NCBI GenBank assembly: GCA_002842575.1
Contig: PHDJ01000006.1
Coordinates: forward strand, 1-64,000
Source: Bacteroidetes bacterium HGW-Bacteroidetes-2
Lineage (GTDB): Bacteria > Bacteroidota > Bacteroidia > Flavobacteriales > Flavobacteriaceae
Direction of reading: 5' to 3'
DNA: 64,000 nucleotides
The translations under genes and the position numbers were made by a program. The notes below the pieces were generated by a model. It saw only the letters and a program-made list of their open reading frames with translations. It ran no database searches and was not told the origin of the DNA. Within the stretch, counting starts at the first letter, position 1. Each line of letters begins with the position of its first letter. Positions 7,786 through 22,016 of this stretch are shown here, one piece after another.

Positions 7786-8273
7786 AAACATTTTATGAAG
7801 AGCAGCAATTTAACCAGTCTTGGTTAAAAGTTTTATTCATTTTTATCCTTGTTGTATCGCTAATACCATTAATAATTTTTATGAATCAGGAGAATTTTGA
7901 TACAAATTCTGAAGAATTATGGTTGTTGTTCATTACAAATACGTTACTCGTTTTCCTTTTCCTATTTTTGATTTGGGTTTTAAAATTGAAAATTAAAATA
8001 GACACTCACGGCATCCATTATGCCTTTTCCCCTTTCAGAAATTCTTTAAAAACCATTACGTGGCGCGAAATAAAATCTTGTGAAGTAGTTTCTTATAGTC
8101 CTATAGGCGATTATGGCGGCTGGGGATATCGCATTAGTTTTCGTCAAGGCAGGGCTTTGAATGTAAAAGGAAATAAAGGCATAAAAATTGAGTTATTAAG
8201 TGGTAAGAAATTACTACTAGGCACACAAAAGCCAATAGAAGCTCAAGAAGCTATAGCCTATTTTAAAAAATAA
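7782..8273 (+). CDS. Hypothetical membrane protein (two N-terminal TM segments, PH-like C-terminal region)
   Basis: Complete ORF with two hydrophobic segments followed by a soluble domain. Confidence 0.6.
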   Translation: MKTFYEEQQFNQSWLKVLFIFILVVSLIPLIIFMNQENFDTNSEELWLLFITNTLLVFLFLFLIWVLKLKIKIDTHGIHYAFSPFRNSLKTITWREIKSCEVVSYSPIGDYGGWGYRISFRQGRALNVKGNKGIKIELLSGKKLLLGTQKPIEAQEAIAYFKK

Positions 8274-8296
8274 ACCAACAGAAAAATATTGTACTG

Positions 8297-9244
8297 ATGA
8301 AAAACTGCATACATATTCTCTTTACATTCCTGATTGTTTTTGTCTCTTTTGGTCAAAATAAAGCGTATAAAGCAGAAGAGATAAAAATAAATAACCTCAT
8401 CGATGGTTTGCTGCTTGTACCAGAAAACGAAGAAACCTCAACACTAGCCATTCTCATTCAAGGCTCCGGACCAACCGATAGAAATGGCAACCAACCGATG
8501 GTAAACAATAATTCTTTAAAATATCTGGCAGAAGGTTTAAGCAATAGAAAAATTGCAACCTTTCGGTATGACAAACGATTGGTAAACCTAGCTAGACAGG
8601 GAAGGTTAAAAGAAGAAAACATTGTGTTTGATGATTTTATCAAAGATGCTATGGATGTTACTGCCTATTTTAAAAAAGACCCCCGTTTTTCTAAAATTGT
8701 AATCATTGGTCACAGCGAAGGTTCTTTAGTTGGAATGGTAACCGCGCAAGAAAATCGGGCAGATGCATTTATTTCTATCGCTGGAGCCGGTCAGGAAATT
8801 GATGATGTAATCGTTGACCAATTGGAACGCCAAGCTCCGGCGTTAAAAGAGGACGCTCGAAATAGTTTTGATGATTTACGGATAAATGGTATTGCTACTA
8901 ATTATGGTATTGGTCTCTCGTCTATTTTTAGACCAAGCGTGCAACCTTTTATGCGAACATGGATGGCGTATAATCCACAAAAAGAAATTGCAAAACTTAA
9001 CATTCCGGTATATATAATTAATGGCGACCAGGATATTCAGGTAGATGAAAATGAAGCTAAACTATTGAAAGAAGCAAAACCGGATGCCGAGTTTTTAATA
9101 ATTGAAGGGATGAACCATATCTTTAAAAAGATAACTCTGGGAGATACTATGGAAAACGCAAAGTCCTATAACGAGCCTAACCGACCCATCATGCCCGAAC
9201 TTGTCGAAAAGATAACCACCTTCATCAAACAACTAAATAACTAA
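8297..9244 (+). CDS. Secreted alpha/beta hydrolase
   Basis: Signal peptide; IQGSGPTDRNGN oxyanion region; GHSEG nucleophile elbow; MNHIFK His. Confidence 0.85.
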   Translation: MKNCIHILFTFLIVFVSFGQNKAYKAEEIKINNLIDGLLLVPENEETSTLAILIQGSGPTDRNGNQPMVNNNSLKYLAEGLSNRKIATFRYDKRLVNLARQGRLKEENIVFDDFIKDAMDVTAYFKKDPRFSKIVIIGHSEGSLVGMVTAQENRADAFISIAGAGQEIDDVIVDQLERQAPALKEDARNSFDDLRINGIATNYGIGLSSIFRPSVQPFMRTWMAYNPQKEIAKLNIPVYIINGDQDIQVDENEAKLLKEAKPDAEFLIIEGMNHIFKKITLGDTMENAKSYNEPNRPIMPELVEKITTFIKQLNN

Positions 9245-9284
9245 GCATTAGAAAATGTAAAACTCTTACTTTTTAGTAAATTGT

Positions 9285-9368
9285 TCTCAATTCTCACTCA
9301 ACACTCAACACTCACCCATCACTCAACACTCACCAACTCACCAACTCACCACTCACCAACTCACCACT
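9285..9368. repeat. Low-complexity ACTCA(A/C)-type intergenic repeat array
   Basis: ctcaattctcactcaacactcaacactcacccatcactcaacactcaccaactcaccaactcaccactcaccaactcaccact. Confidence 0.85.
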
Positions 9369-9370
9369 AA

Positions 9371-10390
9371 TTACCATCTAATAATAACGCTTCCCCAGGT
9401 AAACCCACTTCCAAAAGCAGCAAGAATAACTACATCGTTTTCTTTAATTTTTCCTTGTTCCCAAGCTTGAGTAAGTGCAATGGGTATAGATGCTGCAGTA
9501 GTATTACCATAGGTCATGATATTATTGAATACTTGATTATCAGAAAGACCAAATTTCTTTTGAACAAACTGCGAAATACGCAAATTAGCTTGATGTGGAA
9601 TCAACATATCAATATCTTCTTTATTTAAACCATTGGTTTGCAATCCTTCCATAATTACTTCTGTAAATCGAACAATAGCATTTTTAAACACTAACGGTCC
9701 ATTCATATAAGGAAAGTAAGACTCGTCATTAGGATCATTATCTTTTAAAATATCGTTAACCCAACGTTGTCCCATTCCTGGTGCAACAAGGGAAAGCTCT
9801 TTAAAATGCTCTCCTTGCGAGTGTAAATGAGTGGAAAGCAATCCTTTGTTAGGATTTTCTTCTCTGCTTAAAATTACAGCTCCAGCACCATCACCAAAAA
9901 TAACAGTAACGCCTCTTCCCCTGGTAGTTTTATCTAATCCGTGCGAATGGAGCTCTGCACCAATTACCAAAATATTTTTATACATCCCCGTTTTTATGAA
10001 CTGGTCTGCAACAGAAATAGCATAAACAAATCCCGAACATTGGTTGCGCACATCAAGTGCACCAACAGTTTTAATATCTAATTCTTTTTGAACTAAAACT
10101 CCGGGACCAGGAAAATAAAAATCTGGACTTAACGTAGCAAAAATAATAAAATCAATATCATTTTTATCTATACCGGCCCTCTCAATCGCTACTTTTGCGG
10201 CTTTTACTCCCATTGCAGATGTAGTGTCTCCCGCTCCGGGTACTGCCCAATGTCGTTCTTTAATACCGGTTCGCTCTTGTATCCATTCGTCATTGGTATC
10301 CATCATTTTGGATAAATCCTCATTCGTTACTATATTATCTGGAACATAACTTCCTAAACCAATTATTTTTGAATTATACATTTTTCTCAT
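9371..10390 (-). CDS. 3-oxoacyl-ACP synthase III family protein
   Basis: RNQCSGFVYAI active-site Cys region, IPHQANLRI (His), YGNTTAASIPIAL (Asn); KAS III length. FabH type. Confidence 0.9.
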   Translation of the reverse strand: MRKMYNSKIIGLGSYVPDNIVTNEDLSKMMDTNDEWIQERTGIKERHWAVPGAGDTTSAMGVKAAKVAIERAGIDKNDIDFIIFATLSPDFYFPGPGVLVQKELDIKTVGALDVRNQCSGFVYAISVADQFIKTGMYKNILVIGAELHSHGLDKTTRGRGVTVIFGDGAGAVILSREENPNKGLLSTHLHSQGEHFKELSLVAPGMGQRWVNDILKDNDPNDESYFPYMNGPLVFKNAIVRFTEVIMEGLQTNGLNKEDIDMLIPHQANLRISQFVQKKFGLSDNQVFNNIMTYGNTTAASIPIALTQAWEQGKIKENDVVILAAFGSGFTWGSVIIRW

Positions 10391-11013
10391 AGTCTAAAAA
10401 AATAAGATATTACTTTGAATTGTGTTGCAATATACGCATTAATGATAATTAGATTAATACTTTAATACTTCATTAAGTATGCATGCATAGTATATAAAAA
10501 ACATCTATAGGATTGATTATTATATGGTTGCTTTTTCTTAAATTCACATAAATAATTAATAAAACTAAAAAGGATGCTGAAAAATCAACTTACGGCGGAA
10601 ATTTTAAGTCCAAATATTTTTATATTACTTACAAAAGATGATTTTGTTTAGAAAGCCATTTTTTTTATTGTACTCTTTTTAATTCTTTATTTTTTGCTAC
10701 GTAACTTATAGTTAAAAACATTAATGATAAAATGATTTGCAAGTTAGGTTAGGACCTTCTTCCAGGTAAAGAATCAAAATTAGCCTAAACTTTCATTTGT
10801 AAACGAACAAAGAAAATTGCTTTATACTATCCGTTTTTGAATAAAAAACCCCAATTTTACAATATCAAATTTGCTCTTATCAAGTTTCAAATTATTTTCA
10901 AAAAAATTTCCTCTTCAAAGGTGAAAATGTTTACTTAAATTTGATTGTACTATATGGATATTTTGGCCTAAAAAATATCCAAACGGATTATTAAAACTAA
11001 GACATATTAAAAT

Positions 11014-13014
11014 ATGGATAATTTTTGGCTGATTATGTCATCGGCAATTATAGTAGGTGTCGGGATTTTTTGTATTCCTATGCTGCCAGCAAAAATAAAA
11101 GTTTTTACTAGTTTTCTTCTTGTTTTACTCGTTGCAATAACCACATCCATTCCTGCAGTAAATGCATTATTTGGAACCCCCGTAGAATTTTTTCTGCCAG
11201 GCTCTGTTTTATTTGGAGAGATTCCCCTGCGTATTGATGCTTTATCTGCTTGGTTTATTTTAATTATCAATTTAACCTGTTTAAATGGCGCTTTTTACGG
11301 CATTGGCTATATGAAAACCTATAATGCACAAAAGGCAAATCTTTCATTACATTGGTCTCTATTTCTTATTTTTCAGGTTTCTATGCTTTGGGTTTGTATG
11401 TTACAGCACAGCTTGGCATTTTTGATTGCTTGGGAAATGATGTCTTTATCGTCTTTATTTTTAGTGATTTTTGAACACAACAAAAAGGATACCTTAAAAG
11501 CTGGTATCAATTATATGGTGCAAATGCACTTGGGTGTTGCGTTTTTAACCGTTGGCTTTATTTGGGTATATTTTGCTCAAGGCTCCTTTAATTTTATTGC
11601 AATAAGCGACTATTTTGGCACCAACTTTAATGCCTGGTTATTTCTGGTTTTTTTTGTAGGTTTTGGTATCAAAGCGGGTTTTGTACCGCTACATTCTTGG
11701 CTTCCTCACGCACATCCTGCTGCACCTTCACATATTTCTGGTGTGATGTCTGGTGTAATTGTGAAATTAGGAATTTACGGAATTATTCGAGTGGCCTTAA
11801 TGCTGCAAAGTGAATTGTTACTTATTGGCGAATCCATTCTTATTATTTCCATAATTACCGGAATATTTGGTATTTTAAACGCAAGTGTACATCGAGATTT
11901 TAAAAAAATGTTAGCCTATTGTACTATTGAAAACATAGGTATTATTGGCGCAGGCATTGGATTGTTTCTTATTGGTGCTGGTTTTAATAACACAATGCTT
12001 ATGGTTATTGGGCTTAGTAGTGCTTTATTACATACTTTAAATCACTCTTTATTCAAATCTTTATTATTTTTTGCCGTTGGGTCTGTTTATCAGCAAACTC
12101 ACTCGCGGGATATGGAAAAACTAGGTGGACTCATTCGCCAAATGCCTCAAACCGCCATTTTATTTCTTATTGGCGCCATTGCTATCGGTGGGCTACCTCC
12201 TTTAAACGGCTTTATTTCTGAAATTTTAATTTATAACGGATTTTTAAACGGCATACATACCATTGGTCTAACGCATTCTACTTTAATGATACTTTCGCTT
12301 GCAAGTTTGGCTTTTATAGGCGGACTTTCTTTGTTAACCTTTACTAAAATGTTTGGCACCGTGTTTTTAGGAAATCCAAGGCAGCTTTTGAAAAATACCC
12401 CAACAGAAGTCTCTTTATGGATGCGGGCACCGCAATATTTTATTGTTGCTATAATGTTTTCCATAGGTTTTTTTCCACAATTTTATTTTAGTGTGACTCT
12501 TCAAGTTATTCAATCTATGATGCCCATTTCTAACCTAATCGATTTAGAAATATTTACCCCCATGATAACATTAATGGAAAATGTGGGTAGATATTCTATT
12601 CTTTTTTTAGTACTTCTTATAGGAATCTTTCTTTTACGAAATTATTTTGTAAAACTTCAACCTATAACACAAAACAATACATGGGGGTGCGGCTATGTGG
12701 CACCAAATATATCTATGCAATACACTGGAAAATCTTATTCTAAAAGCTTAAGCAAGCTATTGAGCTTTATTGTAAAGGAAAATAAAAAATATATGGAAAT
12801 TGAAACCAGTGATATTTTTCCTGAATCAAGAAAACACACCTCTCATTATGCTGATTTTTTTGAAGATAACATTTTTGAGCAGGCAACAAAACGATTGCTA
12901 CGTGGATTAAACTATTTTCAATTTATACAAAATGGGAAAGTTCAAATGTATGTGGTTTATGGAATTTTCTTTATTTTATTGGTGTTTTTTGGCACCTTAT
13001 TTAACCTAATCTGA
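11014..13014 (+). CDS. HyfB/NuoL-like proton-translocating antiporter-type subunit (first copy)
   Basis: AWEMMSLSSLFLVIFEH; KAGFVPLHSWLPHAHPAAPSHISGVMSGVIVKLGIYGIIR; HyfB-type C-terminal TWGCGYVAPNISMQYTGKSY. Confidence 0.9.
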   Translation: MDNFWLIMSSAIIVGVGIFCIPMLPAKIKVFTSFLLVLLVAITTSIPAVNALFGTPVEFFLPGSVLFGEIPLRIDALSAWFILIINLTCLNGAFYGIGYMKTYNAQKANLSLHWSLFLIFQVSMLWVCMLQHSLAFLIAWEMMSLSSLFLVIFEHNKKDTLKAGINYMVQMHLGVAFLTVGFIWVYFAQGSFNFIAISDYFGTNFNAWLFLVFFVGFGIKAGFVPLHSWLPHAHPAAPSHISGVMSGVIVKLGIYGIIRVALMLQSELLLIGESILIISIITGIFGILNASVHRDFKKMLAYCTIENIGIIGAGIGLFLIGAGFNNTMLMVIGLSSALLHTLNHSLFKSLLFFAVGSVYQQTHSRDMEKLGGLIRQMPQTAILFLIGAIAIGGLPPLNGFISEILIYNGFLNGIHTIGLTHSTLMILSLASLAFIGGLSLLTFTKMFGTVFLGNPRQLLKNTPTEVSLWMRAPQYFIVAIMFSIGFFPQFYFSVTLQVIQSMMPISNLIDLEIFTPMITLMENVGRYSILFLVLLIGIFLLRNYFVKLQPITQNNTWGCGYVAPNISMQYTGKSYSKSLSKLLSFIVKENKKYMEIETSDIFPESRKHTSHYADFFEDNIFEQATKRLLRGLNYFQFIQNGKVQMYVVYGIFFILLVFFGTLFNLI

Positions 13015-15044
13015 TGGTATATATTCAAACTTATATAGAAATTTTGATACTGACCCTTCTGTTGATTCCATTTATAAAAATGAAATGGAAAGGAATAGTT
13101 ACGGTTTCTGCGGTAATTTTAAATGCTATAATAATTGGATATATTGCTCTACCTGCCTTAATGGGTGAAAAATTAGAATTTATTTTATCGGGAACCATCA
13201 TTACCAGTGAAATCCCGATTAGGATTGACGCACTATCTGGATGGTTTATGCTCTTGATTAACTTTACCGTCATTACCGGGGCTTTGTATGGTTTACAGTA
13301 TATGAAAGCCTATCAAAAACAAACCACAAACATTTCATTACATTGCCTTGCATTTCTTTTAATGCAAACCTCATTAATGGCTATTTGCATAATTCAAAAT
13401 TCATTAGTGTTTTTATTTGCTTGGGAAATTATGACGCTTTCTTGTTTTATTCTCATTATTTTTGAATACCAAAAACAGGCTACACTCAAAGCTGGCATCA
13501 CTTTTTTGATTCAATCGCACGTTGGGGTATTATTTCTTACTTTAGGATTTATCTGGGTAAATTATAGAACTGGCTCTTATGATTTTGAGGCCATTCATCA
13601 ATTTTCAACTACATTTCCACCTGTTGTAAGTTTAGGGGTGTTTTTTGCCTTTTTTATTGGGTTTGCTATTAAAGCAGGATTTGTACCTTTTCATACGTGG
13701 CTTCCGTATGCACATCCTGCCTCTCCATCTCATATTTCTGCAGTAATGTCTGGTGTCATCATCAAAATAGGCATTTTTGGAATTTTAAGAATGTTACAAC
13801 TTATTCAAACCGATTATGTGGTATTGGGCTATTTAATTCTTGTGTTTTCAGTTATTTCTGGCATTTATGGAGTAATGCTCGCTATCATTCAACACAATTT
13901 AAAGAAACTTTTGGCCTACCACAGCATCGAAAATATAGGTATTATAGGTATTGGTATTGGGTTGGGAACTTTAGGAATAGGACAAGAAAATAGCAACTTA
14001 GTTTTTTTTGGGTTTGGTGGGGCTCTGCTTCACGTATTAAACCATTCTTTATTTAAATCGTTACTGTTTTTTGGTGCAGGAAACCTTTATCAAGCAACAC
14101 ACACGATGAATATTGAGCACTTTGGAGGGCTAGTAAAAAGAATGCCGCAAACCACCATTTTATTTCTGATTGCCTCACTTGCTATTTGTGGACTTCCACC
14201 ATTTAACGGTTTTGTGTCTGAATTTTTAATTTACTCCGGTTTATTTCAGGGAATGAAAAACATTGCAATGCTTAATATAATGACCCTTCTTTTCTCCGTT
14301 TTTGGATTAGTACTTATTGGAGGTCTTGCGCTTCTTTGTTTTACCAAAGCCTTTGGGTCTATTTTTTTAGGGAATGCCCGTAAGGATTTTAATGACACTC
14401 CCACCGAATCTAAAATGGGGAAACTCTTACCAATGTATATGGCTGCAGCGGGTATTGTTTCTATAGGTCTATTTCCAAAATTTTTCTTGTCTCTTTTACT
14501 TGAACCTATAAAATTATATGCTGATAAGATGAAATTTATGGAGGATATTTCACCTTCTATCCAAATTAGCGATACGCTTCAATATATAGGTTATTGTGCA
14601 ATTGAATTTATTGTATTAGTGGCTTTTATTTTATATATAAGAAAATGGGTTACTAACAAAAAACCAAAACCCATCCAAGCCACTTGGGGTTGTGGTTATG
14701 TGGGAGAAACCAAAAAAATGCAATATTCTGCCAGTTCGTTCATTAGATCCTACAGAAAACTTGCTGAACCCCTTTTATCTATTGAAAAGCATAAAATTGA
14801 CATTGAAGGTGTTTTTCCTTCTTTAGGCAAACACGAAACCCATCCTCATGATAAAATTGAAATATGGCTCCTTGAAAAACCATGGAAACGAATGCGACAT
14901 TTCTTCATAAGATTCCAGTTTTTGCAAAATGGGAATGCACAGTTTTATGTGCTTTATGGTACGGTATTCATCGCATTAATTATTGGTTTTCCAATTTTAT
15001 TTGATGCAATAAAAAAAATAATTTACTTTTTAAACCAAATATAG
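13014..15044 (+). CDS. HyfB/NuoL-like proton-translocating antiporter-type subunit (second, paralogous copy)
   Basis: AWEIMTLSCFILIIFEY; KAGFVPFHTWLPYAHPASPSHISAVMSGVIIKIGIFGILR; ATWGCGYVGETKKMQYSASSF; collinear with the preceding ORF. Confidence 0.9.
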   Translation: MVYIQTYIEILILTLLLIPFIKMKWKGIVTVSAVILNAIIIGYIALPALMGEKLEFILSGTIITSEIPIRIDALSGWFMLLINFTVITGALYGLQYMKAYQKQTTNISLHCLAFLLMQTSLMAICIIQNSLVFLFAWEIMTLSCFILIIFEYQKQATLKAGITFLIQSHVGVLFLTLGFIWVNYRTGSYDFEAIHQFSTTFPPVVSLGVFFAFFIGFAIKAGFVPFHTWLPYAHPASPSHISAVMSGVIIKIGIFGILRMLQLIQTDYVVLGYLILVFSVISGIYGVMLAIIQHNLKKLLAYHSIENIGIIGIGIGLGTLGIGQENSNLVFFGFGGALLHVLNHSLFKSLLFFGAGNLYQATHTMNIEHFGGLVKRMPQTTILFLIASLAICGLPPFNGFVSEFLIYSGLFQGMKNIAMLNIMTLLFSVFGLVLIGGLALLCFTKAFGSIFLGNARKDFNDTPTESKMGKLLPMYMAAAGIVSIGLFPKFFLSLLLEPIKLYADKMKFMEDISPSIQISDTLQYIGYCAIEFIVLVAFILYIRKWVTNKKPKPIQATWGCGYVGETKKMQYSASSFIRSYRKLAEPLLSIEKHKIDIEGVFPSLGKHETHPHDKIEIWLLEKPWKRMRHFFIRFQFLQNGNAQFYVLYGTVFIALIIGFPILFDAIKKIIYFLNQI

Positions 15045-15045
15045 T

Positions 15046-15951
15046 ATGCTAAGCCTTGTATTAATGGTTGTCACAAGTTTGTTTTTTATGGGAATTGTTA
15101 TAAGAACCAAAAGCATAACTTCTGGCAGAAAAGGACCAGGAATCTTTCAGCCGATGAAAGACGTGATTCGATTGTGGAAAAAAGGAGCAGTGTTTAGCCG
15201 CACTACCAGCTTTATTTTTCAGATTGCACCAAGCATTTATTTTGCTTCTATTATTATGGCTATTTTAGTAATACCTTTTGGGCAATACAAAGGCATTGTT
15301 TCTTTTGATGGTGATTTTGTGTTTTTTGCTTATGTGCTAGCTCTTGGAAAATTTTTCAGCATCATTGGCGCTTTAGATACCGGAAGTAGTTTTGAGGGTA
15401 TGGGAGCAAGTCGAGAAGCATTATACTCGATGCTTGCAGAGCCTGCCTTTTTTATTTTAATGGGTTCTTTCGCATTGTACACAGGGCATACCTCGTTCTA
15501 CGAAATATTTACATCCCTCCATTTTGGTTCTTATATTTCGTATGCCCTTGGTATTTTAGCAACCTTTGTTTTAATTATGATTGCTATGATTGAAAACAGC
15601 CGTATGCCGGTTGACGACCCAAAAACACATTTAGAATTAACGATGGTTCACGAAGTAATGATTCTGGACAACAGCGGTTTTGATTTGGGTTTAATTCTTT
15701 TTGGCACAAACCTAAAGTTTGCAATGTATGGAGCGCTTATAGCCAATTTTTTTACCGGTTCATTTTCAATCCTAATTTCTATCCTTATATTTTTAGTAGT
15801 TCAAATCCTCTTTGCTATTATGGTAGGAATTTTAGAGTCCTTTTCCGCACGATTTAGAATGGGAAATAATGCCCAATTTATATTTACTCTTACCTCTTTT
15901 TCGATACTAATATTTTTTGGGGTATTACTGATTATGGGGAAATTTGTTTAA
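15046..15951 (+). CDS. HyfC/NuoH-like membrane subunit
   Basis: RKGPGIFQPMKDVIRLWKKG; EGMGASREALYSMLAEPAFF; NSRMPVDDPKTHLELTMVHE. Confidence 0.9.
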   Translation: MLSLVLMVVTSLFFMGIVIRTKSITSGRKGPGIFQPMKDVIRLWKKGAVFSRTTSFIFQIAPSIYFASIIMAILVIPFGQYKGIVSFDGDFVFFAYVLALGKFFSIIGALDTGSSFEGMGASREALYSMLAEPAFFILMGSFALYTGHTSFYEIFTSLHFGSYISYALGILATFVLIMIAMIENSRMPVDDPKTHLELTMVHEVMILDNSGFDLGLILFGTNLKFAMYGALIANFFTGSFSILISILIFLVVQILFAIMVGILESFSARFRMGNNAQFIFTLTSFSILIFFGVLLIMGKFV

Positions 15952-16026
15952 TTATGAATGCTTTTACATTATTTAATTTTTATGGATTGTATTATAAACA
16001 ATTTGATTTAAAAAATTTATAAAAAA

Positions 16027-16656
16027 ATGACTAACGTATTATTAATCGTATTTTCTATGTCGCTTATCTATTTAAGTATAGCAAACCGACTGATGAGTTA
16101 TGTAAAAATTCTTGCCTTTCAAGGCATCCTACTGTTTGGAGTAAGTTTTATAGAATTGGGTGAAATGAACCCACTAAATCTCACCTTCATACTTTTAGAA
16201 ACCGTTATTTTTAAAGCACTCGCGGTTCCCTTATTTCTTAATTACGTAATAAAACGAAATGCTATTACTAGAGAGGCAGAGCCATATGTGCCCAACTTTA
16301 TTTCCCTTATTATTGTAACTACTATTGTTGTAGCTACCTTTTTGTTATCTAATACCATTGAGGATTCACAATTAAACAAAGTATATTTTGTTGCGGCGCT
16401 ATCTGCCCTATTTACGGGTTTATATATTATTGGCACCAGAAAAAAAATTCTAACACACGTTATGGGGTTTCTGGTTATAGAAAACGGAGTTTTTATTTTA
16501 TCGCTTGCCGTGGGTAACGAAATGCCATTGCTGGTTAACACTGGTATTCTTCTCGATCTTTTTATCACGGTATTACTCCTAGGAATATTTGTAAATAAAA
16601 TTGGTGATGTTCTTGGAAGCGGTGATGTGGACCAATTAAGAAACTTAAAAGATTAA
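16027..16656 (+). CDS. HyfE-like membrane subunit
   Basis: Seven-TM HyfE/NuoK-like; ILLETVIFKALAVPLFLNYVIKR; GFLVIENGVFILSLA. Confidence 0.8.
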   Translation: MTNVLLIVFSMSLIYLSIANRLMSYVKILAFQGILLFGVSFIELGEMNPLNLTFILLETVIFKALAVPLFLNYVIKRNAITREAEPYVPNFISLIIVTTIVVATFLLSNTIEDSQLNKVYFVAALSALFTGLYIIGTRKKILTHVMGFLVIENGVFILSLAVGNEMPLLVNTGILLDLFITVLLLGIFVNKIGDVLGSGDVDQLRNLKD

Positions 16657-16729
16657 CGATGTTAAATGTTTTTATTAAAAAAATCGTTTTTAAAATGTTT
16701 AGATATACACTAAAATTATCATTCAAAAT

Positions 16730-18157
16730 ATGACCATACCTTATTTAATAGGTGCATTTGCCATTTCAGCCTCCCTGTTTTTTAACAGAAATAAAAAAAT
16801 GAATTATATCCTAGTGGCTATTTTTCTAATTCTTCAATGGGTGTTTACCATCTTTGAATATCACCATAAAAACATAGAAGAATATGGCTATTTCCTTCCG
16901 GATGCTATTGGTGTTTTATTGCTTTTTACCATTAGTATTATTGTTGTCCCTGCCTTTTACCATAGCTATGTTTTCTTTTCAAAAAATGATGACCATCCAA
17001 GAAATAGAGCGATGTATTATGCCTCTATGGTTGTACTTATCTTTGCATTAAGTTTGGCTTACCTTTCTAACCATATTGCGGTAACTTGGATTTTTGTGGA
17101 AATGACTACTCTTTCTGCATCAGCTCTTATTTATCACCGAAGAAATCTTCGCACCCTTGAAGGTACTTGGAAATATATTTTTGTTTGCTCTATAAGTATC
17201 ACTTTTGTATTTATTGGTATTTTGTTTTTAAGTATTGCCGTTCAGCAAGTCGGTCAAAGTGATCTAACGTTCACTTCCTTAATAAGGAGAGCAAATGAAT
17301 TGGATCCTTTTTGGCTCCGATTGGCTTTCATTTTTATCTTTACTGGATATACTGCCAAAATAGGTCTTGTGCCTATGTACACTGCCGGAATTGATGCAAA
17401 AGACAAAGCCCCTTCACCTGCTGGGGCCTTATTATCGAGTGTTTTAATGAATGTGGGGTTTATAGGTATTTTTCGTTTCTACGAAATCATTGCCCAAACT
17501 AAATTGCTTCCTTGGACAAATAATATCATTATGATTTCTGCTGTCCTTTCTATATTTATTGCTGCCGTTTATATGATTAAAGTAAAAAACATAAAAAGGA
17601 TGTTTGCTTACTCTAGTATTGAACATATGGGTATTGTAATGTTAGGTATTGCCGCCGGTGGTATTGGCTATTATGCTGCCATACTGCATATTATTCTTCA
17701 CTCGTTTGTAAAATCTAGCTTATTTTTTCAAATGGGGCAAATTTATAGGATATACAAAAGCAAAAGCATTTACGATTCGGGAAATTATTTTAAATACAAC
17801 CTTACTGGTGCTATGGTGATTCTTTTAGGATTTATTTCAGCTACGGCAATGCCACCATCCGGTATGTTTATTAGCGAATTTTTAATTTTTCGGTCCTTGT
17901 TTGAAGCCCATTATTTATTTGTATTAATTTTGGTTTTATTACTTCTCACTATTATTATTTGGGCTTTTGGAAAAAACATATTCAAATTGCTGTTTTCCCC
18001 AGCAGTAGATTTTGATGAAACAAAAGTAGAACGCATAAAACCCTACGAATCCATTTCACAATTCATTTTTCTAGGTCTCGTGGTTTACCTTGGGTTAAAT
18101 CCACCACAAGAAATGGTCGATTTGATAAATGAAGCTGTTAAAAACCTACCTTTATAG
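16730..18157 (+). CDS. HyfF/NuoN-like antiporter-type subunit
   Basis: TWIFVEMTTLSASALIYHRRN; GYTAKIGLVPMYTAGIDAKDKAPSPAGALLSSVLMNVG; YSSIEHMGIVMLG. Confidence 0.9.
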   Translation: MTIPYLIGAFAISASLFFNRNKKMNYILVAIFLILQWVFTIFEYHHKNIEEYGYFLPDAIGVLLLFTISIIVVPAFYHSYVFFSKNDDHPRNRAMYYASMVVLIFALSLAYLSNHIAVTWIFVEMTTLSASALIYHRRNLRTLEGTWKYIFVCSISITFVFIGILFLSIAVQQVGQSDLTFTSLIRRANELDPFWLRLAFIFIFTGYTAKIGLVPMYTAGIDAKDKAPSPAGALLSSVLMNVGFIGIFRFYEIIAQTKLLPWTNNIIMISAVLSIFIAAVYMIKVKNIKRMFAYSSIEHMGIVMLGIAAGGIGYYAAILHIILHSFVKSSLFFQMGQIYRIYKSKSIYDSGNYFKYNLTGAMVILLGFISATAMPPSGMFISEFLIFRSLFEAHYLFVLILVLLLLTIIIWAFGKNIFKLLFSPAVDFDETKVERIKPYESISQFIFLGLVVYLGLNPPQEMVDLINEAVKNLPL

Positions 18158-18159
18158 AT

Positions 18160-19656
18160 ATGAAAGCAATTGCCATTAAAAATAACCAGCCAATTCCTTT
18201 TGATACTATTCCTACTCTGGAATATTCGCAATTTTTAGAATTCAATACCTCATTGTTACAAGATGAAAACCACCATTGTGTAAATTATTATGGTATTGCA
18301 ATTCAAGATAAAGTAAAACTTATTTGCTGCATTGCAAACGATAAGGACGCGCTTTTCCATGTTTCCTCGTCATTAGTTCCACGACAAACGCCCATTGAAT
18401 CTTTTACACAGCATCACCTTGCTTTTGAAAAATTTGAACGAGAAATTTACGAAAATTTTGGTGTTCCTATACGTAATCACCCTTGGTTAAAACCGGTTCG
18501 ATTTGCTTTCAATCAAACTAATAAAAATAATACCATTGCCAACTATCCGTTTTTTAATATAGAAAGTGAAGAATTGCACCAAGTAGGTGTTGGTCCAATC
18601 CACGCAGGAATTATTGAGCCCGGACATTTTCGTTTTATCTGCAATGGCGAACAAATTTTGCATCTTGAAATCCAATTAGGGTATCAGCATCGGGGCATTG
18701 AAACCCTATTTCTTCAGAAGAAAAAATTAATTGAACGCCACACCTTAGCAGAAAATATTTCAGGCGACTCAGTAGTAGGACACACTACCACCTTTGCTAA
18801 TTTATGGGAAGTCTTGTGTAATGTGAAAACCGATGTCGAATCACATTTTGCACGAACTCTAGCATTAGAATTAGAACGCATAGCCATTCATACCGGCGAC
18901 TTAAGTGGTATGTGTACCGATGTGGGTTATCAACTAGGAAGTGCCGTTTATGGCCGACTTAGAACTCCTATCATTAACTTTTTCCAACAATGGTGTGGAA
19001 ACAGGATGGCAAAAAGTTTAATTCGTGCAGGATTTTCAAATTTTCCTATCACAGAAGAATTGGGAGAAAAATTAAAAAAAGTATTGGATGCGTTTGAACC
19101 AGATTTCGATGAAATTTGCAAGGAAACATTTAGTGCGCCAACTGTATTAGGTAGGTTTGAAAAAACAGGAATCGTAACCAATGCCGTAGGAAAAAGCATA
19201 GGTCTTGTGGGGATGGCAGCAAGAATGACAAATATTAATCGAGATATTAGAACATCTCACCCGTACAATCTTTATCCAAACCTATCGCACCAACCTATTC
19301 TTAAACATCACGGCGATGCATATAGCCGCGCAAGAATTAAATATAGAGAGGTAAAACAATCCATAGCTTATATTAAAACCTTATTAAATGCCATACCCGC
19401 AGAAAATACAAATAAAATAGTACTACCAAAACCCACACCAAATACTTTTGTACTTTCAATGGTAGAAGGTTGGCGAGGTGAAATTTGCCATTGTGCCATT
19501 ACCGATGCTCAAGGAGAATTGGTTCATTATAAAATAAAAGACCCTTCTTTTCATAATTGGTTAGCAATGGCTTTGGCGGTAAGAAATAATGAAATTTCAG
19601 ATTTTCCTATAAGCAATAAAAGTTTCAATTTATCCTATGCAGGCCACGATTTATAA
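18160..19656 (+). CDS. NiFe-hydrogenase large subunit/NuoCD-like protein without Ni-binding cysteines (Ehr-type)
   Basis: GVGPIHAGIIEPGHFRFICNGEQILHLEIQLGYQHRGIE; L1 region reads AENISGDSVVGH and L2 region reads SFNLSYAGHDL, with no CxxC. Confidence 0.88.
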   Translation: MKAIAIKNNQPIPFDTIPTLEYSQFLEFNTSLLQDENHHCVNYYGIAIQDKVKLICCIANDKDALFHVSSSLVPRQTPIESFTQHHLAFEKFEREIYENFGVPIRNHPWLKPVRFAFNQTNKNNTIANYPFFNIESEELHQVGVGPIHAGIIEPGHFRFICNGEQILHLEIQLGYQHRGIETLFLQKKKLIERHTLAENISGDSVVGHTTTFANLWEVLCNVKTDVESHFARTLALELERIAIHTGDLSGMCTDVGYQLGSAVYGRLRTPIINFFQQWCGNRMAKSLIRAGFSNFPITEELGEKLKKVLDAFEPDFDEICKETFSAPTVLGRFEKTGIVTNAVGKSIGLVGMAARMTNINRDIRTSHPYNLYPNLSHQPILKHHGDAYSRARIKYREVKQSIAYIKTLLNAIPAENTNKIVLPKPTPNTFVLSMVEGWRGEICHCAITDAQGELVHYKIKDPSFHNWLAMALAVRNNEISDFPISNKSFNLSYAGHDL

Positions 19657-19677
19657 TTTCAAGTTTAAAAAAACATT

Positions 19678-20430
19678 ATGATTAACAATTTAAAAATACT
19701 CATTCACCAAGGAAAACAATATATTCCGGATGTCACTACGGTGGAAATTCCGGGTGTTTTTAGAGGGTTGCCAATAATTAGCAACGAAAAAGTAGATGAA
19801 AATACACTTGAAGAAATTTGTCCCACTAAAGCTATTACTACCAATCCTGTACAGTTAGATTTAGGTAAATGTACCTTTTGTGGTGCATGTGCCATCGCTT
19901 TTCCAAAAAAAATAAGGTTCACAAAAACATACAAAATTGCAAGCAATAGTCGCGAGGGATTGGTCGTAAAAGAAGGCCTAGAAACCCCTATTGTACTTAA
20001 CCCCGAAATTATTAGAAAAGAAATTAGCGACTATTTTAGTGGCTCATTAAAACTTCGTCAGGTGTGTGCCGGTGGCGATGGCAGTTGCGAGTTAGAGCTT
20101 GGTGCGTGCAGCAATGTTAACTTTGACATGGGTCGTTATGGAATTGAATTTGTACCTTCCCCTAGACACGCTGACGGCATCGTTATTACAGGGCCCATCA
20201 CCAAAAGTATGGCAGAGCCACTTCAAATTTGCTATGATGCAATGCCCGAGCCAAAAATTATAATTTTGGCAGGTACAGATGCTATTAGCGGAGGAATTTT
20301 TTCTGGCAGCCCAGCATTAGACAGAAGTTTTTTAGAAACCCATAAAATTGATTTGTATGTGCCTGGAAACCCAATACATCCTTTAACCTTCATTAATGGA
20401 GTTTTAGAATTAATAAGAAAAAGAAAATAA
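19678..20430 (+). CDS. Ferredoxin-domain / NuoB-like small subunit fusion with degenerate proximal-cluster ligands
   Basis: CPTKAI...CTFCGAC ferredoxin motif; LKLRQVCAGGDGSCELELGACSNVNFDMGRYGIEFVPSPRHADGIVITGPIT; later AGTDAISGG and YVPGNPI where cysteines are expected. Confidence 0.88.
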   Translation: MINNLKILIHQGKQYIPDVTTVEIPGVFRGLPIISNEKVDENTLEEICPTKAITTNPVQLDLGKCTFCGACAIAFPKKIRFTKTYKIASNSREGLVVKEGLETPIVLNPEIIRKEISDYFSGSLKLRQVCAGGDGSCELELGACSNVNFDMGRYGIEFVPSPRHADGIVITGPITKSMAEPLQICYDAMPEPKIIILAGTDAISGGIFSGSPALDRSFLETHKIDLYVPGNPIHPLTFINGVLELIRKRK

Positions 20431-20450: not shown

Positions 20451-20485
20451 AAGAGGCAAATTTCAAAGAATGAAACTTGCCTCTT
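20451..20485 (+). terminator. Hairpin aagaggcaa...ttgcctctt downstream of the Ehr-like operon
   Basis: Inverted repeat directly downstream of the last operon gene. Confidence 0.55.
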
Positions 20486-20702: not shown

Positions 20703-22016
20703 CTATAGATTTACATATTTTTTATATGCATTAATTTGCACCCTTGCTCCCAAATCATTCATTAAATTATACAACCCAAAAAATGTTCGATTAATGTATA
20801 AAAAATGTTTGGAACCGCGGTTACCATTCATTTTTCTAATTTCATTGTCTTTAGAATATTTTTCACTCAATTTTGCTATTTTCCTAAAGAAAACAGGATC
20901 TGAAAAATCAAAAGTGTCGCTGTGAAATGGTAGGGTAAACAAACTCAACATTTCATGAAAGAGTTCGGAAAAGAATTTTAGTTCCTCCGGGGTATCATCT
21001 GTACGTAAAATTTCTAAGGCAAACATTCGTTCCATAAATAGATCAGGGTTGTTTATATATTCAGGCTTAGCTAACTCAAAGTAGGGTACATAAAATTCTT
21101 CGGGTACCCGTTTTATGCATCCAAAATCGATAGCTATTAATTGAAACTCTTTACTTATCAAAAAATTTCCAGGATGTGGATCTGCATGAACACTTTTTAG
21201 TATATGGATTTGGTACATATAAAAATCCCATAAGGCTTGTCCAACTTTATCAGCAAGTACTTTATTGGTATTTCGATTAGTGAATTCTGAAAGATGCTCG
21301 CCTTCCATCCAGTCCATAGTAAGAATACGTTTGCTGGATAAATTTTCATAATATAACGGAAAAATTATATTTGGTATTAAGGCACAAGCTTCAGTAATTT
21401 CCTTGCTTTGAAGTAATTCCAAATTATAATCGGTTTCTTCTAATAGTTTATCCTCTACTTCTTTAAAATATTTATCGGAATCTTTTCCTTTAATATTAAA
21501 CATTTTCATTGCCACAGGTTTTACAAGGGCTAAATCACTACTTATGCTTTCGGCAACTCCGGGATATTGAATTTTAACGGCTAACTGTTTTCCATCACGG
21601 GTAGCTCGATGTACTTGCCCAATACTAGCTGCATTAACAGAATCTACATTAAAACTATCAAAAATAGCTTCCGGTTCTTGACCTAAATATTTTTTAAACG
21701 TTTTTCTTACCAAAGCAGCAGAAAGTGGTGGCACCTGAAACTGTGCCAAAGAAAATTTTTCAACATAGGCTTTTGGCATGATGTTTTTTTCCATACTAAG
21801 CATTTGGGCTACTTTCAAGGCACTTCCTTTAAGATTTTTAAGGCTGTCGTAGATATCTTCAGCGTTACTTTCATTTAATTTATCTTTAGTCAATTCTGGA
21901 TGTACAAATTTTTCTCCATAATATTTTAAATAGTTTCCTCCTACTTTTACTCCTGTTTTCAACAATTGAGAAGCACGTTTAATTTTTCCAGTGGGAATAG
22001 AATCTAATGTTTTCAT
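20703..22016 (-). CDS. ABC1/AarF (UbiB-like) atypical kinase family protein
   Basis: KNLKGSALKVAQMLSME; AASIGQVHRA; AVKIQYPGV; HADPHPGNFL; AIDFGCIKR. Confidence 0.92.
   Translation of the reverse strand: MKTLDSIPTGKIKRASQLLKTGVKVGGNYLKYYGEKFVHPELTKDKLNESNAEDIYDSLKNLKGSALKVAQMLSMEKNIMPKAYVEKFSLAQFQVPPLSAALVRKTFKKYLGQEPEAIFDSFNVDSVNAASIGQVHRATRDGKQLAVKIQYPGVAESISSDLALVKPVAMKMFNIKGKDSDKYFKEVEDKLLEETDYNLELLQSKEITEACALIPNIIFPLYYENLSSKRILTMDWMEGEHLSEFTNRNTNKVLADKVGQALWDFYMYQIHILKSVHADPHPGNFLISKEFQLIAIDFGCIKRVPEEFYVPYFELAKPEYINNPDLFMERMFALEILRTDDTPEELKFFSELFHEMLSLFTLPFHSDTFDFSDPVFFRKIAKLSEKYSKDNEIRKMNGNRGSKHFLYINRTFFGLYNLMNDLGARVQINAYKKYVNL

Follow-up and report, generated by a model that had tools for sequence, protein, structure and literature searches.

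The window analysed here is a stretch of 64,000 nucleotides from Bacteroidetes bacterium HGW-Bacteroidetes-2 (contig PHDJ01000006.1, positions 1 to 64,000), and our subject is an operon of seven co-directional open reading frames (ORFs) at positions 11014-20430, arranged in the order B1-B2-C-E-F-G-I, all on the + strand. The operon encodes a complex of the energy-converting hydrogenase-related (Ehr) type (Marreiros et al. 2013, as represented in PMC10284858 and PMC6349859), composed of a group-4-hydrogenase-type subunit set and antiporter-type subunits. Ehr complexes without the nickel-iron (NiFe) site are already known. The most unusual feature of the present one is the loss, in its small subunit (I), of the ligands of the iron-sulphur (Fe-S) cluster N2, a feature absent from a preliminary description of this DNA. 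In complex I, it is from N2 that the final electron transfer to quinone proceeds. We consider the canonical N2 cluster to be almost certainly lost, and the membrane arm, judging from its conserved residues, is very probably still ion-active.

Alignment with HycG placed the ligand positions of the proximal [4Fe-4S] (N2) cluster of I at Asp134, Cys137, Asp201 and Asn231 (DCDN versus CCCC), meaning that three of the four ligands are gone. The MbhJ and HycG cysteines were already unmatched in the small subunit in the PDB alignment. A single [4Fe-4S] motif is kept, which by the ferredoxin ligand rule is of the N6b type, N6b being the neighbor of N2 in complex I. The corresponding positions in the window are as follows.

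20077..20088, + strand: N2 ligand positions 1 and 2, Asp134 and Cys137 (both Cys in HycG), by alignment
20278..20280, + strand: N2 ligand position 3, Asp201 (Cys in HycG and NuoB), by alignment
20368..20370, + strand: N2 ligand position 4, Asn231 (Cys in HycG and NuoB), by alignment
19819..19890, + strand: the single kept [4Fe-4S] motif, N6b-type, Cys48, Cys65, Cys68 and Cys71, by alignment with NuoI/HyfH/HycF

Relatives of the complex were collected from two sources, 80 genome contigs and 395 sampled Bacteroidia genomes. This resulted in 97 family sequences, a few of which may represent one genome reached via two collections. The N2 ligand set is CCCC in 29 sequences, DCDN in 49 and otherwise incomplete in 19 (68 incomplete sets in total). 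The last category includes DNDN, DTDN, DVDN, DGDN, DADH, DNEN, ENEN, DDNY and DDHS, as well as one set, DCXN, with an unread residue. Among N2-less members position 1 is Asp or Glu, position 3 is Asp, Glu, Asn or His, and position 4 is Asn, His, Tyr or Ser; position 2 drifts (C, N, A, T, V, G, D or S). The four cysteines of the N6b-type motif, which all family members keep, are at least 97% conserved in both the N2-less and the N2-bearing clade. Members with the full N2 set come mainly from Gastranaerophilales/Melainabacteria, with others in Brevinematales, Spirochaetia, FCPU426, unnamed bacteria, one contig labelled Muribaculaceae and one Bacteroidia genome (L137). Incomplete sets are overwhelmingly from Bacteroidota; one N2-less metagenome-assembled genome (MAG; L066) is labelled Bifidobacterium breve, presumably wrongly. 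The distribution is patchy: the complex was found in 16 of the 395 sampled Bacteroidia genomes (N2-less in 15 of the 16) and in only one of four other genomes of the same genus.

To place the change of N2 state, we relied on the tree of the large subunit G, a marker that does not itself carry the trait, because I is too short to resolve the base. All N2-less members fall on one side of one branch of the G tree. This branch received a Shimodaira-Hasegawa-like approximate likelihood ratio test (SH-aLRT) support of 95 in a quick tree, and an ultrafast bootstrap (UFBoot) support of 93 with SH-aLRT 80 in a careful one, where 92% of bootstrap trees need a single change of state. Since the hydrogenase (Hyc/Hyf) and complex I outgroups carry the cluster, the direction of the change is loss. 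Read from these trees, the N2 ligand set was lost once, in a Bacteroidota clade. The tree of I has a poorly resolved base, needs two changes of N2 state and draws L137, a Bacteroidia sequence that bears N2, close to early N2-less members. Fixed differences between the clades occur at just five positions of I, three of which are N2 ligands (chance P ~2e-5). The genome to which L137 belongs (G248, Bacteroidia; also L144 and L154) keeps the N2 cysteines and has the I gene on a different contig from F and G. Its version of the complex is a possible intermediate, of unsure place in the tree and on a long branch.

N6a-type cysteines are present in HycF, HyfH and NuoI and, within the family, in Brevinematales L081, several Gastranaerophilales and the early-branching N2-less L060; variant forms occur in L061 and L066. 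The main Bacteroidota clade, the window's I included, has none. The NiFe site was thus the first to go, family-wide, followed by N2 and afterwards, in most members, by N6a. The preliminary description had matched the complex to a group proposed as intermediates between hydrogenases and complex I. That does not describe the Bacteroidota branch, in which the missing cluster is a derived loss. The ferredoxin/quinone-linked complex also envisaged there, taken as an oxidoreductase of the usual layout, finds no support either, because three of the four N2 ligands are gone and no member of the window's clade keeps the full set.

The seven genes of the operon were assigned using Pfam and NCBIfam.

11014..13014, + strand: B1, HyfB-like antiporter-type subunit, 666 amino acids (aa); PF00361 1.6e-52; best NCBIfam match hydrogenase 4 subunit B
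13014..15044, + strand: B2, second HyfB-like subunit, 676 aa; PF00361 5e-55
15046..15951, + strand: C, HyfC/HycD/NuoH-like membrane anchor with E-channel; PF00146 2.4e-31
16027..16656, + strand: E, HyfE-like membrane subunit; NF008556 2.3e-17, PF00420 under its cut-off
16730..18157, + strand: F, HyfF-like antiporter-type subunit; PF00361 1.7e-42; NCBIfam hydrogenase membrane subunit / hydrogenase 4 subunit F
18160..19656, + strand: G, large subunit, 30 kDa-like plus 49 kDa/HycE-like; PF00346 1.4e-33, PF00329 1.5e-4
19678..20430, + strand: I, small subunit, N-terminal ferredoxin-like half-domain fused to a NuoB/HycG-like (20 kDa) domain; PF01058 1.4e-19, PF00037 9.5e-5

The families (three antiporter-like PF00361 proteins, NuoH-like PF00146, HyfE/NuoK-like, 49+30 kDa-like and 20 kDa-like) agree with the subunits named in the preliminary description, as do the place and strand of every gene. 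The best solved relatives of G and I in the PDB alignment are the Pyrococcus furiosus membrane-bound hydrogenase (MBH), E. coli formate hydrogenlyase and complex I. The full gene order is intact at 21 loci; it is repeated across many genomes and therefore is not due to chance. The ratio of nonsynonymous to synonymous substitution rates (dN/dS) between the window and its near relatives is ~0.02-0.2 depending on the subunit, a rough estimate since dS is near saturation, and indicates strong purifying selection on the operon's subunits. Neither the ORF list nor the Pfam matches of the seven proteins revealed a diaphorase- or dehydrogenase-type partner gene within the operon, and NuoE/F/G module genes are likewise absent from it. 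The operon is followed by a terminator-like element (20451-20485, - strand; a 15-pair stem and then T's), situated before a convergent ABC1-kinase-like gene (20703-22016, - strand).

In termite-gut Bacteroidales and some Cytophagales the I gene is separated from the other genes of the complex. Nearly all such genomes have a close G homologue elsewhere; only a distant one was found in G062. At five termite-gut-type Bacteroidales loci (L057, L059, L063, L064 and L067) the I gene stands alone, directly downstream of a dihydroorotate-dehydrogenase-like gene, and G is encoded at another place in the genome. In the main clade we found no conserved neighbor genes hinting at function beyond lineage-specific ones. 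Genes for SulP-family (PF00916) anion transporters occur near four N2-less I genes (L051:10823-13054, L147:6595-8298, L052:11796-14021 and L050:1176-3419), directly downstream of I on the same strand in L051 (79 bp) and L147 (~25 bp). These two clusters also share a similar outer-membrane-type protein of ~445 aa (L051:6928-8256 and L147:5174-6511). A SulP-carbonic anhydrase fusion considered for L051 was rejected, as the C-terminal extension has no carbonic anhydrase match. Next to N2-bearing operons there is a formate/nitrite channel gene, usually divergent (L074:2317-3177, PF01226, and eight other, mostly Gastranaerophilales, loci).

The membrane arm retains most of the residues associated with ion translocation. 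Glu144, Lys234, His348 and Glu407 (NuoM numbering) show no variation among the B1, B2 and F subunits of N2-less members, and Lys265 is kept in B1 and B2 and replaced in F. The preliminary description was thus correct in reporting antiporter signature residues and, as far as can be judged from sequence, an intact-looking ion-translocating arm. B1 and B2 fall into two distinct clades inside the N2-less group (SH-aLRT 99-100), which points to a tandem duplication that arose inside the N2-less clade. In the E-channel of C, Tyr96, Lys102, Glu124, Glu132, Glu183, Glu197 and Glu203 are kept, and two further Glu positions are Lys and His. Equivalents of HycD Tyr102, Glu130, Glu138, Glu189, Glu203 and Glu206 are present in all or nearly all N2-less members. 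The residue comparison covered subunits other than E, as HyfE and NuoK aligned badly and the key glutamates of NuoK fell outside it.

The large subunit has lost the NiFe site and kept the proton-transfer residues of the surrounding cavity. None of the four HycE cysteines that hold NiFe is present in G, where the positions read Ser201, Ser204, Ser492 and Gly495, and the set is missing in every family member.

18760..18771, + strand: first lost CxxC of the NiFe site in G, Ser201...Ser204, by alignment to HycE RVCGIC
19633..19644, + strand: second lost CxxC of the NiFe site in G, Ser492...Gly495, by alignment to HycE

Proton-transfer residues of formate hydrogenlyase have been assigned (PMC9474812). 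Their equivalents in G are His148, Glu153, Glu397 and Arg439, each found in 63 of 63 N2-less members, and His244, found in 62 of 63; the HycE counterparts of these cavity residues are His188, Glu193, His284, Glu437 and Arg478. The canopy Asp is Asp or Asn in G, the canopy Ser is not retained, and the beta1-beta2 loop is hydrogenase-like (EPGHF) rather than of the complex I type. Three cysteines of G (Cys40, Cys252 and Cys443, window numbering) are conserved across the N2-less clade but vary in its N2-bearing sister; the alignment places Cys252 two residues ahead of the helix Asp that lines the cavity in complex I. AlphaFold2 modeling of G and I read through as a single chain gave a confident joint fold (mean predicted local distance difference test, pLDDT, 83; predicted template modeling score, pTM, 0.88), which matches formate hydrogenlyase HycE (7z0s_E, E 8e-24) and complex I NuoCD. 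The former N2 ligand positions fall in ten-residue blocks with a mean pLDDT of 81-96 in this model. The artificial fusion disturbed the C-terminus of G, for which the model of G alone (pLDDT 87.7) is better.

Genome-wide statements made here rest on single-family searches. The genome has only one further PF01058 protein, which carries NiFe_hyd_SSU_C and NiFeSe_Hases domains and is the small subunit of a separate NiFe hydrogenase; for this reason the genome is judged to lack complex I. The separate hydrogenase probably belongs to group 1 by its gene layout. Its complete-looking cluster (locus L145, genome contig C72, ~7900-18300) comprises genes for the small and large subunits, a cytochrome b-like and a maturation protease-like protein, and hyp genes. 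The preliminary description had noted the absence of hyp genes. This is true within the window, but a hyp set is present on this other contig around the separate hydrogenase, and we therefore no longer use the absence as support. Its statement that the catalytic arm has no NiFe site does hold, and so does the Ehr-type label, as the complex lacks that site and belongs to the same family as sequences from Melainabacteria and Spirochaetes, in which Ehr has been reported (PMC6349859).

Comparison with known systems shows both shared and distinct features. Like Ehr complexes, the present one combines group-4-type with antiporter-type subunits and has a large subunit without NiFe ligands; its sister clade in the G tree, which was built without published Ehr reference sequences, includes Gastranaerophilales (Melainabacteria) and Spirochaetia. 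Unlike them, the Bacteroidota branch also lacks the N2-type set and usually the N6a-type set, most of its members have a duplicated HyfB, and the window's genome has no formate dehydrogenase (FDH) candidate. An Fe-S chain with an N2-type cluster is usual for Ehr, although outside the definition given in PMC6349859 and PMC10284858; here the set is DCDN. Loss of N2 in Ehr is apparently unreported: no N2-less Ehr members were found in the literature searched, the key 2013 Ehr paper being outside its coverage. E. coli hydrogenase 4 and formate hydrogenlyase (Hyf, Hyc) share HyfB-, C-, E-, F-, G- and I-like subunits, the cavity loop Glu, the canopy Arg and most of the E-channel with our operon, which, however, has no NiFe site, N2-type cluster, HyfA/HyfH, formate dehydrogenase or maturation protease gene. 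Complex I (Nuo) has homologous NuoB/CD/H/L-M-N modules; the operon has neither the NADH module nor the N2 ligand set. The DAB/MpsAB systems (antiporter-like DabB plus DabA; PMC13144422) also possess a complex-I-like antiporter subunit, and DAB2 runs without electron transfer, as we propose below, whereas the present complex keeps the whole hydrogenase-type soluble arm. None of the seven operon proteins has a Pfam match to a DabA-type beta-carbonic anhydrase, which was not searched for in the rest of the genome. Finally, Mrp cation/H+ antiporters share antiporter-type subunits but have no 49/20 kDa-like soluble arm, represented here by G and I.

Our leading reading, which we hold with about even confidence, is an Ehr-family ion translocator from which the electron wire has been removed and which is gated by non-redox, proton-coupled events in the old active-site cavity. 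Together with the sequence evidence, three observations on other systems lead us to favor it: Yarrowia complex I without N2 assembles and has no quinone reductase activity (PMC8042128), protons pass through isolated antiporter modules on their own (PMC11496545), and in DAB2 the hydration of CO2 is linked to an antiporter-like subunit with no electron transfer involved (PMC13144422). According to this proposal, electrons would no longer enter the former active-site cavity by the normal route. H+ or Na+ would be moved, most likely via the three antiporter-type subunits, and the HyfC E-channel would couple these to a proton-linked, non-redox event in the cavity, which might be small-ligand binding, acid-base turnover or a conformational gate. 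The remaining N6b-type cluster could be structural, or could act as a redox or iron sensor setting the gate. The first candidate roles would be pH/Na+ homeostasis or weak-acid/bicarbonate handling. Several points weigh against the proposal. The full conservation of the N6b-type motif makes more sense if it continues to carry electrons, and the conserved Asp/Asp/Asn replacements could hold another metal or cofactor continuing the relay. The beta1-beta2 cavity loop has low confidence in both the G+I model and the model of G alone. The relatives, too, are genome sequences, mostly MAGs.

The choice between non-redox coupling and a re-routed electron path is, for the former, a balanced one. The main rival is a re-wired oxidoreductase, in which ferredoxin would reduce the N6b-type cluster directly. 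The vacated N2 pocket (Asp134/Asp201/Asn231) would house a substrate, metal or cofactor that receives the electron, and this transfer would power the membrane arm. We regard this rival as rather unlikely. The four N6b-type cysteines retained in both clades fit such a relay, every residue substituted at positions 1, 3 and 4 (D, E, N, H, Y or S) could bind a metal, and the N6b-N2 spacing of complex I would permit electron transfer into the pocket. However, the operon has no redox partner, and the genome has no molybdopterin oxidoreductase (no PF00384 matches, with 11 of 14 control genomes positive). Position 2 drifts freely, making a cubane-like site in the pocket unlikely. Moreover, by the geometry of complex I, the cavity without N2 would be beyond the normal electron-tunnelling range of N6b. 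Because no PF00384 protein is present, we also rejected for the window's genome the FDH-Ehr pairing proposed in PMC6349859.

More doubtful is a plain Mrp-like cation/H+ antiporter with an idle cavity, the soluble arm being only structural or regulatory. It would agree with the intact antiporter residues and with the extra antiporter subunit gained by duplication in the N2-less clade. Yet Mrp-type antiporter genes are already present elsewhere in the genome, as a pair on contig C45, and a dead cavity leaves the invariant cavity residues of G unexplained. We consider it improbable that the ion gradient is coupled specifically to an acid-base reaction in the former NiFe/quinone cavity, e.g. uptake or hydration of CO2/bicarbonate or a reaction of another small weak acid; the SulP genes near four N2-less loci are a circumstantial lead in this direction. 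If true, CO2/bicarbonate-type coupling would represent a second origin, from the hydrogenase side, of the DAB function. Still less probable is an ordinary Ehr complex with a re-liganded Fe-S cluster ([4Fe-4S], [3Fe-4S] or [2Fe-2S], with Asp/Asn/Cys ligands) at the N2 position. Asp-ligated [4Fe-4S] clusters are generally known from some ferredoxins, and one Cys is kept in the 49 DCDN sequences out of 97, but position 2 is Ala, Val, Gly, Asn or Thr elsewhere within that clade, where none of the four positions then offers a sulphur ligand, and we know of no cluster held by Asp, Asp and Asn alone. The resemblance of the subunit set to hydrogenase 4 and the hyp genes in the genome might suggest a bona fide group 4 NiFe hydrogenase, or a decaying operon, with cysteines missing through sequence errors, but we rejected the former because no member has the NiFe cysteine set and the hyp genes accompany the separate hydrogenase, and sequencing error or a local pseudogene because 68 sequences have an incomplete N2 set and dN/dS is low, so that hardly any probability remains for either.

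How complex I turns electron transfer into long-distance ion pumping is a long-standing question. The N2-less branch, with its cavity proton residues, most of the E-channel and the antiporters kept under strong selection, and its N2-bearing sister offer a ready comparison for a membrane arm without redox chemistry. There is also a consequence for annotation. Profile libraries label the genes of this operon as hydrogenase 4 or NADH dehydrogenase, and such labels are no basis for crediting genomes with hydrogen metabolism or complex I.

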